Below, piece after piece: positions 28,651-39,000 of a stretch of 64,000 bases of DNA. Position 1 is the stretch's first letter. Each line of letters opens with the position of its first letter. Made by a program: the position numbers and the translations under genes. Origin of the DNA: Deltaproteobacteria bacterium (GTDB taxonomy: Bacteria > Desulfobacterota > Desulfomonilia > UBA1062); assembly GCA_018434685.1 (NCBI GenBank), contig JAHDOV010000021.1, forward strand, positions 1 through 64,000. Reading direction: 5' to 3'. The notes under the pieces were generated by a model. It was not told the DNA's origin, ran no database searches, and saw nothing but the letters and a program-made list of their open reading frames with translations.

Positions 28651-28727
28651 CGGGAAGTGGCTCAGCCTGGTAGAGCACAGCGTTCGGGACGCTGGGGTCC
28701 GGGGTTCAAATCCCCGCTTCCCGACCA
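28651..28727 (+). tRNA. tRNA-Pro (CGG)
   Basis: The full cloverleaf is visible. The acceptor CGGGAAG pairs with CTTCCCG, the D-arm follows, and the anticodon stem CAGCG/CGCTG encloses loop TTCGGGA with anticodon CGG. The T-arm contains GGTTCAAATCC and the 3' CCA is encoded (28725-28727). Confidence 0.97.
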
Positions 28728-29464: not shown

Positions 29465-31465
29465 ATGATGCTGCTGGATCCAATAACAATCGGAAAGGTT
29501 GCGATACGAAACAGGATTGTCATGCCCGCCATGCATCTCAATTACACGCCTGAATGCGAGGTAACCGATCAGCTCGTTGATTTTTACGAGGAAAGGGCGC
29601 GGGGAGGGGCCGGCCTGATCGTTATCGGCGGGTGCAGGATAGATGAATACAGCGGCGCTCATGGACTGATCGGCCTCGATGACGACAGATATGTCCCGGG
29701 GCTGAAACGGCTGAGTGATGCCGTGCATAAACACGGGGCCCGCATCTCGGCACAGCTGTATCATGCCGGCCGCTACGTCCATTCGTTTCTCATAGGCGGC
29801 AGGCAGGCCCTTGCACCCTCGGCGGTGACGTCCAGGTTTACCCGCGAGGAGCCCCGCGAGATGACACGGCAGGAGATTGCCGAGACCGTGGAGAATTATG
29901 CGCGGGCAGCCCTCAGGGCACAAAAGGCAGGTTTTGACGGTGTCGAGATCCTCTGCAATACCGGATACCTCCTCAACCAGTTTTTATCTGCAATCACCAA
30001 TAAAAGAAAAGATGAATACGGCGGAGACATCTCCGGCAGGATGAGGTTCCCCCTCGAAGTGGTCGAGGCCGTCACCGCTGCGGTGGATACAGGGTTCATG
30101 GTGCAGATGAGGCTTGGCGGCAGTGATTTCATGCCCGATGGCAATACCCTGTATGAGACGAGGATATTTGCCGGGGAGCTCGACAAGAGGGGGATCGATG
30201 CCTTCAGCATCACCGGGGGCTGGCATGAGACCCGAGTACCCCAGTTGCCCATGGAGGTGCCCCGGGGCTGTTATGTGTACCTGGCGCGCGCGGTCAAGGA
30301 GGTTGTGAACAAGCCCGTGATCGCCTGCAACAGGATCAACGACCCCTCTCTGGCAGAGCAAGTCCTTCGGGAGGGGAGCGCCGACATGGTAGGCCTGGCG
30401 CGCGGCCTGATTGCAGACCCCGAGCTGCCGCTGAAGCTGAGCCAGGCCAGGTCGGGTGAAGTCATGCCGTGCATCGGGTGCAATCAGGGATGCTTCGACC
30501 ATATTTTTGCGCTGGAACCGGTGGCGTGCATGGTGAACCCAAGGGCAGGCCGTGAAGGCCAGGTGCCGAGCAGTATGAGTGCGGGCAAATCCAAAAAAGT
30601 GCTCGTGGTCGGCGGCGGGCCGGCAGGCCTGAGTGCTGCCGCAACGGCTGCCGGTTTCGGTCATGAGGTCGCGCTCTATGAAAAATCAGGGGTCCTGGGC
30701 GGCCAGCTCAATCTCGCCGGTGCACTCGATGAAAGAAAAGAGTTCCTTGCGCTGAAAGATGCCCTGATCCATAAGGCCCGGCTCGCCGGCGTGAAGATGC
30801 ATGTCGGTACACAGGCGGATGAAGATCTGATTGAACAATACAACCCCGATGCAGTCATCCTGGCGAGTGGCGGTGCTCCGCTCACACCTGCTATTCCCGG
30901 CATCGACGGGGCACAGGTAGTCCAGGCCTGGGATGTCCTTTCCGGCAGGGTCGATGTCGGCCAAAACGTGGTGATCATCGGCGGAGGGGCAGTGGGCATC
31001 GAGACCGGGGTCTATATTGCCAAGATCGGCACGCTCGATGCGCACAGCCTGCAGTTTCTCTTCCTGAATCAGGCCGAGGACATCGACACGCTCAGAAAAT
31101 TATGCACCAGGGGCAGCAAAAAGGTCACCCTCATCGAGATGCTCCCCCGGTTGGGCAAGGATATCGGGATGTCGACGCGCTGGGTGGAAATGCAGATGCT
31201 TGAGTTGTACGGCGTGCAATCCATGACCGACTCCATTGTCACCGGGATCACCCCCGAGGGCGTCGTGGTGGACCGACAGGGCTCCCTGGAGCATATCTCC
31301 TGTGACACTGTCGTGGTTGCGGTGGGAACAGCCTCATCAAACAGCCTGGAGCACGTACTACTGGGTAGGGCAGGGCAGGTTCTTGTCGTGGGAGATGCCA
31401 GGAAACCGCGCAAGGCATATGAGGCGATCCGGGAGGGATTTGAGGCGGCAATCAGCCTGGGCTGA
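29465..31465 (+). CDS. old-yellow-enzyme family NADH:flavin oxidoreductase with 4Fe-4S cluster
   Basis: A 666-residue enzyme built like 2,4-dienoyl-CoA reductase. An N-terminal FMN TIM barrel (about 1-330) is followed by an iron-sulfur motif CIGCNQGCFD with a fourth Cys in ACMVNP (about 334-356). An FAD domain (VLVVGGGPAGLSAAATAAG, near 380) and an NAD(P) domain (VVIIGGGAVGIETG, near 503) complete it. It reduces an activated C=C bond; the substrate is unknown. A palindromic operator sits at its promoter. AAAGGGGG precedes the ATG pair at 29465/29468. Confidence 0.9.
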   Translation: MMLLDPITIGKVAIRNRIVMPAMHLNYTPECEVTDQLVDFYEERARGGAGLIVIGGCRIDEYSGAHGLIGLDDDRYVPGLKRLSDAVHKHGARISAQLYHAGRYVHSFLIGGRQALAPSAVTSRFTREEPREMTRQEIAETVENYARAALRAQKAGFDGVEILCNTGYLLNQFLSAITNKRKDEYGGDISGRMRFPLEVVEAVTAAVDTGFMVQMRLGGSDFMPDGNTLYETRIFAGELDKRGIDAFSITGGWHETRVPQLPMEVPRGCYVYLARAVKEVVNKPVIACNRINDPSLAEQVLREGSADMVGLARGLIADPELPLKLSQARSGEVMPCIGCNQGCFDHIFALEPVACMVNPRAGREGQVPSSMSAGKSKKVLVVGGGPAGLSAAATAAGFGHEVALYEKSGVLGGQLNLAGALDERKEFLALKDALIHKARLAGVKMHVGTQADEDLIEQYNPDAVILASGGAPLTPAIPGIDGAQVVQAWDVLSGRVDVGQNVVIIGGGAVGIETGVYIAKIGTLDAHSLQFLFLNQAEDIDTLRKLCTRGSKKVTLIEMLPRLGKDIGMSTRWVEMQMLELYGVQSMTDSIVTGITPEGVVVDRQGSLEHISCDTVVVAVGTASSNSLEHVLLGRAGQVLVVGDARKPRKAYEAIREGFEAAISLG

Positions 31466-31530: not shown

Positions 31531-33201
31531 TTACATCCCTGCGCAGAGCTCACGTAGAGCTGTGCCGTCAATGGCCTTGTGCAGCGGGGCGCCCGGGGGA
31601 ACCATGGGCAGGGCCATGGCGCTTTCGTCTACCGGGATGTCGATGACGGCAGGGCCTTTCGTGCGGAGCAATTCAGCCGGGTCTCTGTCCTGACTGAACC
31701 GGGAGGCATTCAGGCCGAAGCCCCTGGCGATGGCAACGAAGTCGGTGGGCATATCGAAGCGGGAGGCTGTGATACGGCCATTGTAGAAGAGCTCCTGCTG
31801 CTGGCGTACCAGGCCGAGATGGCCGTTGTCGAGGATAAAAATCTTGATATCGCACTGCAGTTCGGCCAGCGTGGCGAGCTCCTGGATATTCATGAGCAGC
31901 GAACCGTCGCCGGTAAAGCACAGGACAGTTTTCTCCGGGTGCATGAGGGCAGCGCCGATGGCTGCGGGCAGGCCGAAGCCCATGGTCCCGAACCCGCCGG
32001 AGGTGATAAGCTGGCCCGGATATCTGAAGGGAAAGGCCTGGGCGGTCCACATCTGGTGCTGTCCCACGTCGGTGGTGACTAACGCGCCGCTGCCTGCCGC
32101 CTCACCGATAGCGGCGATGATGTCCAGGGGAGCACGGTCATCAGGCTGGTGCGGATGGGTGCTTCTGATGTTTGCTATCTCGCGCTGCCAGACGCCCCGG
32201 TGAGTAGGGGCAACGAGCGGCAGGAGCATTTCGAGCGCCTCCTTGGCGTCTGCCGTGACCGGGCACGCTGCCGGCCGGATCTTGTTGATCTCGGCCGGGT
32301 CGATATCGATATGAATGACGCTGGCATGGCGGCAGAAAACATCGGCAGGCCCGGTGACCCGGTCGTCGAACCGTGTTCCGATAGCGATGATACAATCGGC
32401 CTTTTCGAGGATCAGGTTGGTGGCGTGTCGGCCGTGCATGCCGGGCATGCCCAGGAAGAGGGTGTCGTGGGCAGGAAAGACCCCCTGGGCCATGAGGCTG
32501 GCCACGGCAGGGATGTCTGCCGTGGCGGCGAGTTCACGCACCAGGGAAGCGGCGCCGGAGTGCGTCACTCCGCCGCCCACATAGAGCACGGGGCGGCTCG
32601 AGGCATTGATCATTGTAGCTGCCCGCGCGATACTCCCGGCATGGGGCCTCGGCGAAGGGGATTTTTTCCCGGGGGCGGGCCAGGCCGCGAAGTCGGCGAA
32701 CTCAAGCTGCACATCCTTCGGGATATCGATGAGCACCGGGCCGGGCCTGTCGGACATGGCGATGGCGAAGGCCTGGGGGATGACATGGAGGAGTTCGGCT
32801 GCGTGACGGACACCAAAGGCATGCTTGGTGAACGGTGCCGCCACCCCGCAGATATCGATCTCCTGAAAGGCATCCGTGCCGATGAGTTTCCGCGAGACCT
32901 GGCCGGTAATGGCGATCAGCGGGACCGAGTCCATGTGCGCATCTGCTATGGCCGTGAGGAGATTGGTGGCCCCCGGGCCCGAGGTGGCAAGGCAGACCGC
33001 CGGTGTCCTGGTGGATCGTGCCATGCCCTGGGCGATAAAGGCCGCGCCCTGTTCGTGCCGCGCTAGGATGTGCCGCAGGCCGCTTTTCCCGAGTTCGTCG
33101 TAGAGAGGCAGATTGGCCCCGCCCGGGATGCCTGCCACCATGTGAATGCCCTGGCGCTCCAAGAGATGTACAATCATTTGAGCTCCCGTCAGTCTCATCA
33201 T
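31531..33201 (-). CDS. ilvB: acetolactate synthase catalytic subunit
   Basis: A TPP enzyme that condenses two pyruvates to acetolactate (or pyruvate with 2-oxobutyrate) in branched-chain amino acid synthesis. The 556 residues show GIPGGANLPLYDEL, the catalytic-Glu segment HEQGAAFIAQGMAR, SGPGATNLLTAIADA, and the TPP motif GDGSLLMNIQEL...ILDNGHLG. AGGAG lies before two consecutive ATGs (33201 and 33198); the second has better spacing. No ilvN regulatory subunit is adjacent. Expression is evidently controlled by the two-leader attenuator upstream, which favours a biosynthetic rather than a degradative role. Confidence 0.92.
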   Translation of the reverse strand: MMRLTGAQMIVHLLERQGIHMVAGIPGGANLPLYDELGKSGLRHILARHEQGAAFIAQGMARSTRTPAVCLATSGPGATNLLTAIADAHMDSVPLIAITGQVSRKLIGTDAFQEIDICGVAAPFTKHAFGVRHAAELLHVIPQAFAIAMSDRPGPVLIDIPKDVQLEFADFAAWPAPGKKSPSPRPHAGSIARAATMINASSRPVLYVGGGVTHSGAASLVRELAATADIPAVASLMAQGVFPAHDTLFLGMPGMHGRHATNLILEKADCIIAIGTRFDDRVTGPADVFCRHASVIHIDIDPAEINKIRPAACPVTADAKEALEMLLPLVAPTHRGVWQREIANIRSTHPHQPDDRAPLDIIAAIGEAAGSGALVTTDVGQHQMWTAQAFPFRYPGQLITSGGFGTMGFGLPAAIGAALMHPEKTVLCFTGDGSLLMNIQELATLAELQCDIKIFILDNGHLGLVRQQQELFYNGRITASRFDMPTDFVAIARGFGLNASRFSQDRDPAELLRTKGPAVIDIPVDESAMALPMVPPGAPLHKAIDGTALRELCAGM

Positions 33202-33223
33202 GTGCTCCTTTCGTGTATGGAAT

Positions 33224-33259
33224 AAAAAAAGGCCCCCGGCGGGATCACCGCCGGGGGCC
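33224..33259 (-). terminator. ilvB attenuator terminator 2
   Basis: A perfect 12-bp GC stem (33231-33242 with 33248-33259) with a 5-nt loop and a T7 tail on the minus strand (33230-33224), 22 nt before the ilvB start. Its 5' arm segment CCGGCGGT (33254-33247) can instead pair with ACCGCCCGG (33314-33306) at the end of leader peptide 2, with one bulged C. Confidence 0.85.
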
Positions 33260-33283
33260 TTGTGCTGGTTGTGCAGCCTTTGC

Positions 33284-33364
33284 CTAGTCCCAGGGGCAAT
33301 CCCGTCCGGGCGGTACGACGACCACCAGGACGACCATAAGGACCAGGACCAGCAACTGCTTCAT
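33284..33364 (-). CDS. Val/Leu-rich leader peptide 2 of ilvB
   Basis: A 26-codon ORF too short for standard gene calls. Residues 4-17 are LLVLVLMVVLVVVV, and 13 of 26 residues are Val or Leu. GAGG lies ten bases before the ATG. It ends 24 nt before the terminator hairpin that precedes ilvB. Ribosome stalling at these codons when Val-tRNA or Leu-tRNA is scarce is the expected control, as in E. coli ivbL-ilvBN. Confidence 0.8.
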   Translation of the reverse strand: MKQLLVLVLMVVLVVVVPPGRDCPWD

Positions 33365-33389
33365 GTTATTCTCGCCTCTTTTCCAAAAT

Positions 33390-33422
33390 AAAAAAGCCCC
33401 CGCCGGTCTTGCCGGCGGGGGC
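33390..33422 (-). terminator. ilvB attenuator terminator 1
   Basis: An 11-bp perfect GC stem (33396-33406 with 33412-33422), 5-nt loop, and T6 tail on the minus strand (33395-33390). Its 5' arm end GCCGGCA (33416-33410) is complementary to TGCCGGC (33457-33451) inside the last codons of leader peptide 1, so terminator and antiterminator are mutually exclusive. Confidence 0.85.
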
Positions 33423-33447
33423 CCTTAGTGCCTGTTTGACCAAGGCT

Positions 33448-33531
33448 TCAGCCGGCAGACGGCATCCTGTTGACAACGACGACCAGGAGCTGCAGGACCA
33501 CGGACTGAAGGTTGGTTGAGTAATGTTCCAT
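33448..33531 (-). CDS. Val/Leu-rich leader peptide 1 of ilvB
   Basis: A 27-codon ORF; residues 11-20 are VVLQLLVVVV, and ten of 27 residues are Val or Leu. It is followed by its own terminator (33390-33422) and then by leader peptide 2. No good Shine-Dalgarno is seen, and the promoter candidate lies right against the ATG, so it may be read from a leaderless mRNA. Neither leader contains isoleucine. Confidence 0.7.
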   Translation of the reverse strand: MEHYSTNLQSVVLQLLVVVVNRMPSAG

Positions 33532-33539
33532 GGGAATAA

Positions 33540-33568
33540 TACCTACCGATAAATCCCCTGTTTGTCAA
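33540..33568 (-). promoter_or_regulatory. ilvB leader promoter
   Basis: On the minus strand TTGACA (33568-33563) is followed at 17 bp by TAGGTA (33545-33540), or at 21 bp by TATTAT (33541-33536). The -35 is perfect and the -10 is weak. Transcription would start close to the leader 1 ATG. Confidence 0.45.
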
Positions 33569-33636
33569 AAGAATAAAACCGGAGCTCGCCAGGAGCGGAT
33601 ACACCGTCTGACGAAAGCCTTTCTGTGACCGGTCCT

Positions 33637-33665: not shown

Positions 33666-34310
33666 TTATGTAAATATCCCCGGCTTGCCCTGGGCAAGGG
33701 CCTGCTCGAACAGTCTGGCGATGATGCGTCCGAAACGGTTTGTCTGATCCCGCACCTCTTGTTCGCTCCTGCCGGGATGAAGACCGAAGGTGATGAGGAT
33801 TCCGCTCAGGGCGGCATAGAATGTCTGGGATATCACCCGGGTGTTCTCCTCTACGCCGATTTTCCTGAAGAGTCGGTCGAACATGTCCATCATGGCAGTC
33901 TCGACGGCGTTGAGCTTTTCGATCAGTTCGCTGTTGAGCGCCCCGGTGAGCATGAAATAGGGCATGAGTCTGTAGTACTGCTCGTGTTTCATGGTATAGG
34001 CTATGATCTGGGTTGCGGCATCCTCGATGGAGATCTCTGAAGTCCTGTCGATAAAGGCCTCGAAGGTCTCGATGAACCGCTGCGTGCTCTGCAGAAAGGT
34101 CTCCACATAGAGGTGCTGCTGGTCTGAGAAATACCGGTATATCAATGCAGGGGATATCCCCGCCTCCTGTGCAATGTCGCGCATGTTGACCCTGCTGAAG
34201 GGCCTTGTCGCAAAGACCTCTTCGGCCGCAGCAATGATGATGTTCCTTCGGGTTTCCCGCTCCTGCTCCTTGAGGTCGGAGAAGGCGATCTTCTTCTGTT
34301 TTAACTGCAT
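33666..34310 (-). CDS. TetR-family transcriptional regulator
   Basis: A 214-residue regulator with an N-terminal helix-turn-helix (about 18-66; FSRVNMRDIAQEAGISPALI then YRYFSDQQHLYVE) and an all-helical ligand domain. The start at 34310 has GGGAG at good spacing; the frame is open to 34370 without a better signal. It is divergent from higBA and stands next to the ilvB leader. Target and ligand are unknown. Confidence 0.9.
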   Translation of the reverse strand: MQLKQKKIAFSDLKEQERETRRNIIIAAAEEVFATRPFSRVNMRDIAQEAGISPALIYRYFSDQQHLYVETFLQSTQRFIETFEAFIDRTSEISIEDAATQIIAYTMKHEQYYRLMPYFMLTGALNSELIEKLNAVETAMMDMFDRLFRKIGVEENTRVISQTFYAALSGILITFGLHPGRSEQEVRDQTNRFGRIIARLFEQALAQGKPGIFT

Positions 34311-34434
34311 ATGTGTGCTCCCTGCCGTGAACATCCCAAACATGCCGGTTAGTAAGATTGAACCAAACAATTCAAATAAGCAGGCATAAATTGTAACTCA
34401 TTGCTGCGGAATGTCAAATGGTCTTTTTCTCTAA

Positions 34435-34469
34435 TAACGCTTGACGTTACTAGCGAGGCGCGCTATTAA
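34435..34469 (+). promoter_or_regulatory. higBA promoter with overlapping operator
   Basis: TTGACG (34441-34446), 17-bp spacer, TATTAA (34464-34469). The palindrome TAACG-CTTGA-CGTTA (34435-34449) covers the -35, as expected for autorepression by the HigBA complex. Transcription would start next to the higB ATG. Confidence 0.65.
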
Positions 34470-34476
34470 AAGCTTA

Positions 34477-34758
34477 ATGATAAAATCATTTGCCTGCAGA
34501 GAAACGGAGAAAATATTCAACAGGGAGTTCTCGAGAAAGCTGCCGCGAGACATACAGAGGATTGCCTTACGAAAGCTCGCTTATGTTCATGCTGCAGGGA
34601 ATATGAATGACCTGAGAATTCCACCATCCAACTGCTTGGAGAAATTGAAGAAAGACCGGGAAGGTCAATACAGTATACGCATCAACGATCAATGGCGTAT
34701 CTGCTTTAAATGGGAAGAGAACAACGCCTATGAGGTGGAGATCGTAGACTATCATTGA
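34477..34758 (+). CDS. higB: HigB/RelE-type toxin
   Basis: A 93-residue RelE-superfamily mRNA interferase: KIFNREFSRKLPRDIQRIAL, LRIPPSNCLEKLKKDREG, YSIRINDQWRICFKWE and a terminal EIVDYH. The toxin-first order and the antitoxin with an XRE domain are typical of HigBA. ATG 34477 matches family N-termini. It has no Shine-Dalgarno and lies at the predicted transcription start, so it may be leaderless. higA follows after 12 nt. Confidence 0.93.
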   Translation: MIKSFACRETEKIFNREFSRKLPRDIQRIALRKLAYVHAAGNMNDLRIPPSNCLEKLKKDREGQYSIRINDQWRICFKWEENNAYEVEIVDYH

Positions 34759-34770
34759 AAGGAGTGAGCC

Positions 34771-35076
34771 ATGAGCGCAGAAAAAATGAAACCGATACAC
34801 CCGGGTGAGATCCTCATGGAGGAGTTCTTAAAGCCGATGGGTATCAGCCAGTATCGTTTAGCGAAAGATATCAGTGTGCCCGCGCGGAGAATAAATGAAA
34901 TAGTGCAGGGGAAGAGGTCCATTACAGCAGATACGGCCTTGAGGCTTGCGCGGTTTTTCGGCACCTCCCCGGAGTTGTGGGTAAGCCTGCAGGCCTATTA
35001 TGATCTCGAGATCACCAGGGATCAGTTGAACGGGCGGCTCGAGAGCGAGGTCAGGCCCTATGCAGTAAATGGATAA
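34771..35076 (+). CDS. higA: HigA-type antitoxin
   Basis: A 101-residue XRE-family antitoxin with KPIHPGEILMEEFLKPMGIS, the helix-turn-helix RLAKDISVPARRINEIVQGK and TALRLARFFGTSPELWVSLQ. It binds HigB and represses the operon. AAAGGAG precedes its ATG. The strong Shine-Dalgarno here, against none for the toxin, would give an excess of antitoxin. Confidence 0.94.
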   Translation: MSAEKMKPIHPGEILMEEFLKPMGISQYRLAKDISVPARRINEIVQGKRSITADTALRLARFFGTSPELWVSLQAYYDLEITRDQLNGRLESEVRPYAVNG

Positions 35077-35324: not shown

Positions 35325-35411
35325 TGGTGCCGGGAGGGGGACTTGAACCCCCACAGGTCTACACCTACTAGACCCTGAACCTAGCGCGTCTGCCAATTCC
35401 GCCATCCCGGC
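35325..35411 (-). tRNA. tRNA-Leu (CAG)
   Basis: An 87-nt class II tRNA with a long variable arm. The acceptor GCCGGGA pairs with TCCCGGC, the anticodon loop is TTCAGGG with anticodon CAG, and the T-arm contains GGTTCAAGTCC. CCA is encoded (35327-35325). Confidence 0.97.
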
Positions 35412-38925: not shown

Positions 38926-39000
38926 AGGCACGTAGCTCAGGGGGAGAGCACCACCTTGACGCGGTGGGGGTCCAGGGTTCAAATCCCTGCGTGCCTACCA
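38926..39000 (+). tRNA. tRNA-Val (GAC)
   Basis: A 75-nt tRNA. The acceptor AGGCACG pairs with CGTGCCT, the anticodon stem CCACC/GGTGG encloses TTGACGC with anticodon GAC, and the T-arm has GGTTCAAATCC. CCA is encoded at 38998-39000. Nine T residues follow immediately (39001-39009), then the thrS Shine-Dalgarno. Confidence 0.96.

Follow-up and report, generated by a model that had tools for sequence, protein, structure and literature searches.

Two putative ivbL-type attenuators in series upstream of a solitary ilvB gene in a Deltaproteobacteria bacterium

Textbook schemes of attenuation usually show a single leader peptide and a single terminator. The locus described here resembles ivbL-ilvBN of E. 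coli in its leader peptide with a Val/Leu run, its predicted antiterminator, its terminator, its IlvB family gene and a similar spacing from stop codon to stem, but differs from that single unit with ilvN in having two apparent units in series before an ilvB gene without ilvN. Serial sensors are known from T-boxes, which commonly occur in tandem in Bacillota, with ilvB and trpE among the genes that they precede, and for which a pseudo-cooperative, digital-like output has been proposed (PMC12452182). As in tandem T-boxes, two series sensors of one tRNA-charging signal would each have their own expression platform; T-boxes bind tRNA directly, whereas the proposed sensor here is the ribosome translating a leader peptide, and a search of the leader against Rfam gave no T-box match at gathering score, nor any with E values of up to 1. 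The tandem attenuators mgtM/mgtP of Salmonella mgtCBR, termed a singular example, respond to different signals (ATP and proline) in an additive manner, and their stem-loops are unlike intrinsic terminators (PMC3641672). The present locus shares with mgtM/mgtP the two leader ORFs and, as proposed, two attenuation steps within one leader, but both of its leaders are Val-dominated and each has an intrinsic terminator. Two leader peptides before one gene are also shared with ermBL/ermBL2, where attenuation is translational and antibiotic-induced, without a tRNA-charging sensor (PMC8274638). The initial annotation knew of no described tandem version, and same-signal tandem leader-peptide attenuators were likewise not found in the full-text literature, in which older comparative work on attenuation is thinly covered, so the novelty is provisional.

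The window, which is the whole 64,000-nucleotide stretch of DNA that was analysed, carries the following features in the order tetR, ORF1, T1, ORF2, T2, ilvB on the minus strand.

33666..34370, minus strand: TetR-family regulator gene, upstream of the leader and on the same strand as ilvB
33568-33563, minus strand: TTGACA, a perfect hexamer, candidate -35
33531-33448, minus strand: leader ORF1, MEHYSTNLQSVVLQLLVVVVNRMPSAG followed by a stop, 27 codons with a Val/Leu run
33451..33460, minus strand: segment 2 of unit 1, GTCTGCCGGC, predicted antiterminator strand, with GCCGGC-A-AGAC in the 5' arm and loop of T1 as its partner
33426-33392, minus strand: terminator T1, 15 bp stem with 11 GC pairs, T6, -30.4 kcal/mol
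33364-33284, minus strand: leader ORF2, MKQLLVLVLMVVLVVVVPPGRDCPWD followed by a stop, 26 codons with a Val/Leu run
33288..33316, minus strand: segment 2 of unit 2, GTACCGCCCGGACGGGATTGCCCCTGGGA, predicted to form a 1:2 hairpin or an antiterminator with the 5' arm of T2
33261-33229, minus strand: terminator T2, 14 bp stem with 12 GC pairs, T7, -32.5 kcal/mol
31531..33201, minus strand: ilvB, acetohydroxyacid synthase large subunit, 556 aa, E. coli IlvB type

The coordinates, peptide runs, stem lengths and T tracts initially annotated for both units were all correct on re-examination, and the complementarities between leader ORF and terminator arm were found as claimed (33457-33451 with 33416-33410; 33314-33306 with 33254-33247). 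The gap between stop codon and terminator is 21-22 nt in both units, and the ATG of ORF2 lies 27 nt from the T1 stem. Both leader ORFs contain a Val/Leu run of 9/10 (also 9/10 in ORF1 when counted as Ile/Leu/Val) and are Val-dominated at ~1.5:1, with 6 Val/4 Leu in ORF1 and 8 Val/5 Leu in ORF2. Both runs finish with VVVV ahead of segment 2, and ORF2 has extra Leu codons before its Val run. The Shine-Dalgarno sequence of ORF1 is weak (AGGT, 9 nt upstream of the start); ORF2 has a better one, GAGG. In the 128 kb that the two strands of the window make up, there are exactly two Val-rich short ORFs; both lie in this leader and both precede a strong terminator, and none of 500 dinucleotide shuffles of the leader region contained a Val-rich leader ORF. 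Rfam gave nothing in the leader at gathering score, with only weak His_leader-like matches (28.5 and 22.4 bits vs 49), and the leader DNA had no match in the phage collection. Genes for tRNA-Leu (CAG; 35325-35411, minus strand), tRNA-Val (GAC; 38926-39000, plus strand) and tRNA-Pro (CGG; 28651-28727, plus strand) lie near the leader; CUG and GUC, the codons recognised by the nearby Leu and Val tRNAs, are also those used most often for these amino acids in the two leader ORFs, a match that is possibly a coincidence.

The window IlvB matches TIGR00118 with 632 bits (cutoff 538) and has PRK08155 (E. coli IlvB) as its best profile, which makes it a biosynthetic enzyme for valine and leucine, the amino acids that the leaders would sense, as an ivbL-type attenuator requires. 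No ilvN was found downstream of it, and the convergent neighbour at 29465-31465 (plus strand) encodes a BaiCD/OYE-like flavoenzyme. The second ilvB of the genome (L002, G000:C22:49062-50747) is part of an ilvB-ilvN-ilvC cluster, for which neither a leader peptide nor a terminator was found, so the solitary ilvB of the window would be the attenuated acetohydroxyacid synthase.

Antiterminators were predicted by folding RNA that starts just past a ribosome stalled at the final Val codon and stops where the terminator loop ends. The predicted structures have energies of -25.8 kcal/mol in unit 1 and -28.6 kcal/mol in unit 2 and capture the 5' arm of the terminator with 15-16 pairs (15 in unit 1). 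In unit 1, GTCTGCCGGC is predicted to pair with GCCGGC-A-AGAC, and in unit 2, GGATTGCC and CTGGG with the arm and loop of T2; the alternative 1:2 hairpin of unit 2 would pair its Val codons with segment 2. The antiterminator energies were better than those obtained with shuffles of the upstream segment (p 0.0065 for unit 1, 0.012 for unit 2), and the arm-pair counts by themselves were not significant (p 0.09 and 0.055, respectively). When the stall position was moved codon by codon, pairing of the arm was at least 15 up to the last Val codon and 0-3 at the stop in both units, and the controls, E. coli ivbL and one single-leader ortholog, gave the same pattern. The alternative terminator and antiterminator states that a fold of the leader was expected to reveal are thus predicted for both units, in dependence on the position of the ribosome. 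At equilibrium the full-length RNA preferred the terminator in every case, so antitermination would have to be kinetic, as in classical cases. Naked RNA likewise pairs as the antiterminator until the 3' arm of the terminator is made, so folding alone is no proof of regulation. Each unit has the sequence hallmarks of an attenuator, namely a codon run, a terminator and a predicted antiterminator that depends on ribosome position.

This anatomy, together with the ortholog comparison below, supports the original reading of the leader as two ribosome-mediated Val/Leu attenuators in series, and two complete ivbL-type transcription attenuators before the solitary ilvB are what the locus probably contains. 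With Val-tRNA (and Leu-tRNA) charged, a ribosome would reach the leader stop and mask segment 2, and the terminator would form. If charged Val and Leu tRNAs were scarce, it would stall on the Val run and leave segment 2 free to capture the terminator's 5' arm and loop; RNA polymerase would then read past, and ilvB would be transcribed only by polymerase that passes both T1 and T2. We infer that both leader ORFs are translated, that one transcript runs through both and that termination is real.

Applied to 143 ilvB loci, an automatic rule for recognising units assigned one unit to 69 loci and two to 6, the window included. A seventh double (L113, single by the rule), whose unit 1 ORF has no ATG, was recognised by reading the sequence, bringing the totals to ~68 orthologous loci with a single ivbL-like unit and 7 with a doubled one, i.e., the window and six others. 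The median stop-to-stem spacing of the single-unit orthologs is 23 nt, much the same as the 21-22 nt of the window units. As to the conservation of two leader ORFs in relatives, on which the tandem proposal was to be judged, orthologous genes typically have one unit, and the doubled form is present in six other genomes. As tests of chance occurrence of units, control stretches were run alongside the shuffles: the same rule found a unit in 5/425 controls, a rate that predicts ~1 spurious second unit in 75 leaders, vs the seven observed, and nearly all second units, checked one by one, have both a terminator and a predicted antiterminator. The other doubled loci are from Breznakibacter xylanolyticus of the Bacteroidota (L029, leaders MTMHFFNNLLSVVVVVVSLRIIRRIVA and MNIHLSTIVLSVVVVVVCQPPQG), a cultured species (DSM 6779), from a member of the same order (L113), and from the phyla to which a Spirochaetes MAG (Spirochaetota set; L118 and L134) and a Fibrobacteres MAG (Fibrobacterota set; L144 and L145) belong. 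An ilvN-like match lies just downstream at L144 and L145, and none at L029, L113, L118 and L134. At L118, the stretch that separates T1 from ORF2 (about -205 to -175, counted from ilvB) contains a third perfect hairpin, AAGGCGACAATAATTATTGTCGCCTT. At another locus (L149), a single Val leader precedes a pair of successive terminators (about -155 to -65, counted from ilvB), of which the second has no ORF; this is perhaps an intermediate in the gain or loss of doubling. Within the class of the source organism, an ortholog was found in 3/42 genomes searched, the window included, the other two being single-leader; this ilvB was missing from two genomes of the same genus and from the other genomes of the family that were searched, so these genomes offer no close copy of the doubled leader by which to judge its conservation.

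The gene upstream of the leader offers another explanation, in which unit 2 alone is the ilvB attenuator, T1 is a terminator or insulator for tetR, and ORF1 is a relic or a chance ORF. The tetR gene is read in the same direction, T1 is the first terminator that follows it, and the signals before unit 1 are poor: the TTGACA has no good -10 at 16-18 nt (a spacing of 17 nt gives TAGGTA), and the TATTAT at 21 nt would place the start at about the ATG of ORF1. The promoter candidate of the initial annotation, with a candidate -35 hexamer and no good -10 at consensus spacing, is not supported as a clear promoter; this weak promoter and the weaker Shine-Dalgarno sequence of ORF1 both favour unit 2 alone. 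However, T1 lies ~240 nt past the tetR stop and 21 nt past that of ORF1, the usual spacing of a unit; ORF1 has its Ile/Leu/Val run and a predicted antiterminator of its own that responds to ribosome position; ORFs like it were absent from the shuffles; and doubling recurs in the six other genomes. On spacing, run and antiterminator, and recurrence, T1 as the tetR terminator was ranked lower, and we consider this explanation unlikely. Farther upstream of tetR, a HigB-like toxin and HTH antitoxin pair is located at 34441-35076 (plus strand).

Slightly less probable again is that the two units sense different signals, e.g., Val and Leu, with a graded or combinatorial response as in Salmonella mgtCBR. 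The larger number of Leu codons before the Val run of ORF2 would fit, but the Val and Leu contents are near-identical (6:4 and 8:5), VVVV precedes segment 2 in both units, and Val runs are present in both leaders of the other doubled loci. The idea of graded sensing by peptides with differing Val/Leu ratios, put forward in the initial annotation, is not borne out by these nearly equal compositions. A separate promoter for each unit, which would place the units in parallel on different transcripts and is favoured by the lack of a clear promoter before unit 1 of the window, is highly improbable, since the gap between T1 and ORF2 is just 27 nt, its top promoter score (3.9) falls short of the 4.5 that is the median for random stretches, and even with two promoters, transcripts from the first would still cross both terminators. 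At L118 and L134, clear sigma-70-like promoters precede unit 1 (TTGACA-N17-TATAAT and TTGACA-N17-TAAGAT, respectively) and the promoter score between the units never exceeds chance level, so that at these two loci a single transcript has to cross the two terminators in series.

Similar codon runs had been taken to suggest that the two units of the window arose by duplication. Compared with units of other genomes, their similarity to each other ranks 4th and 2nd of 81; they align well, yet neither is the other's best match. From these sequence similarities, duplication is plausible and weakly favoured, without being established. None of the orthologs found is more than 58% identical to the window IlvB, which branches by itself within the part of the tree that contains E. 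coli IlvB. By parsimony on the IlvB tree the doubled label needs 6 changes, and the strongly supported branches alone are compatible with a single origin of doubling. On balance, we lean slightly towards several bacterial groups having doubled the ivbL switch of ilvB, perhaps independently, as a recurrent and undescribed same-signal series with multiplicative, low-leak output.

Multiplicative output would be the logical consequence of terminators in series: polymerase must pass both, so read-through should roughly equal the product of the two units. In an illustrative model with one unit at 0.1 basal and 0.9 maximal read-through, doubling takes the fold change from 9 to 81 and the basal level from 10% to 1%, with the effective Hill coefficient going from 1.0 to 1.13. 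With so large a change in fold and basal level and so small a change in the Hill coefficient, the modelled gain would be mostly a tighter shut-off and a wider range, not a sharper threshold.

The doubled ivbL-type layout is apparently a real, undescribed tightening of a well-known switch. Either unit can be inactivated on its own, which would make the multiplication rule directly testable, and the recurrent series form may serve as a natural test of how range and leak are tuned in a switch that couples transcription to translation. If true, it would be the ribosome-based counterpart of tandem T-boxes, a convergence at the same gene, ilvB.
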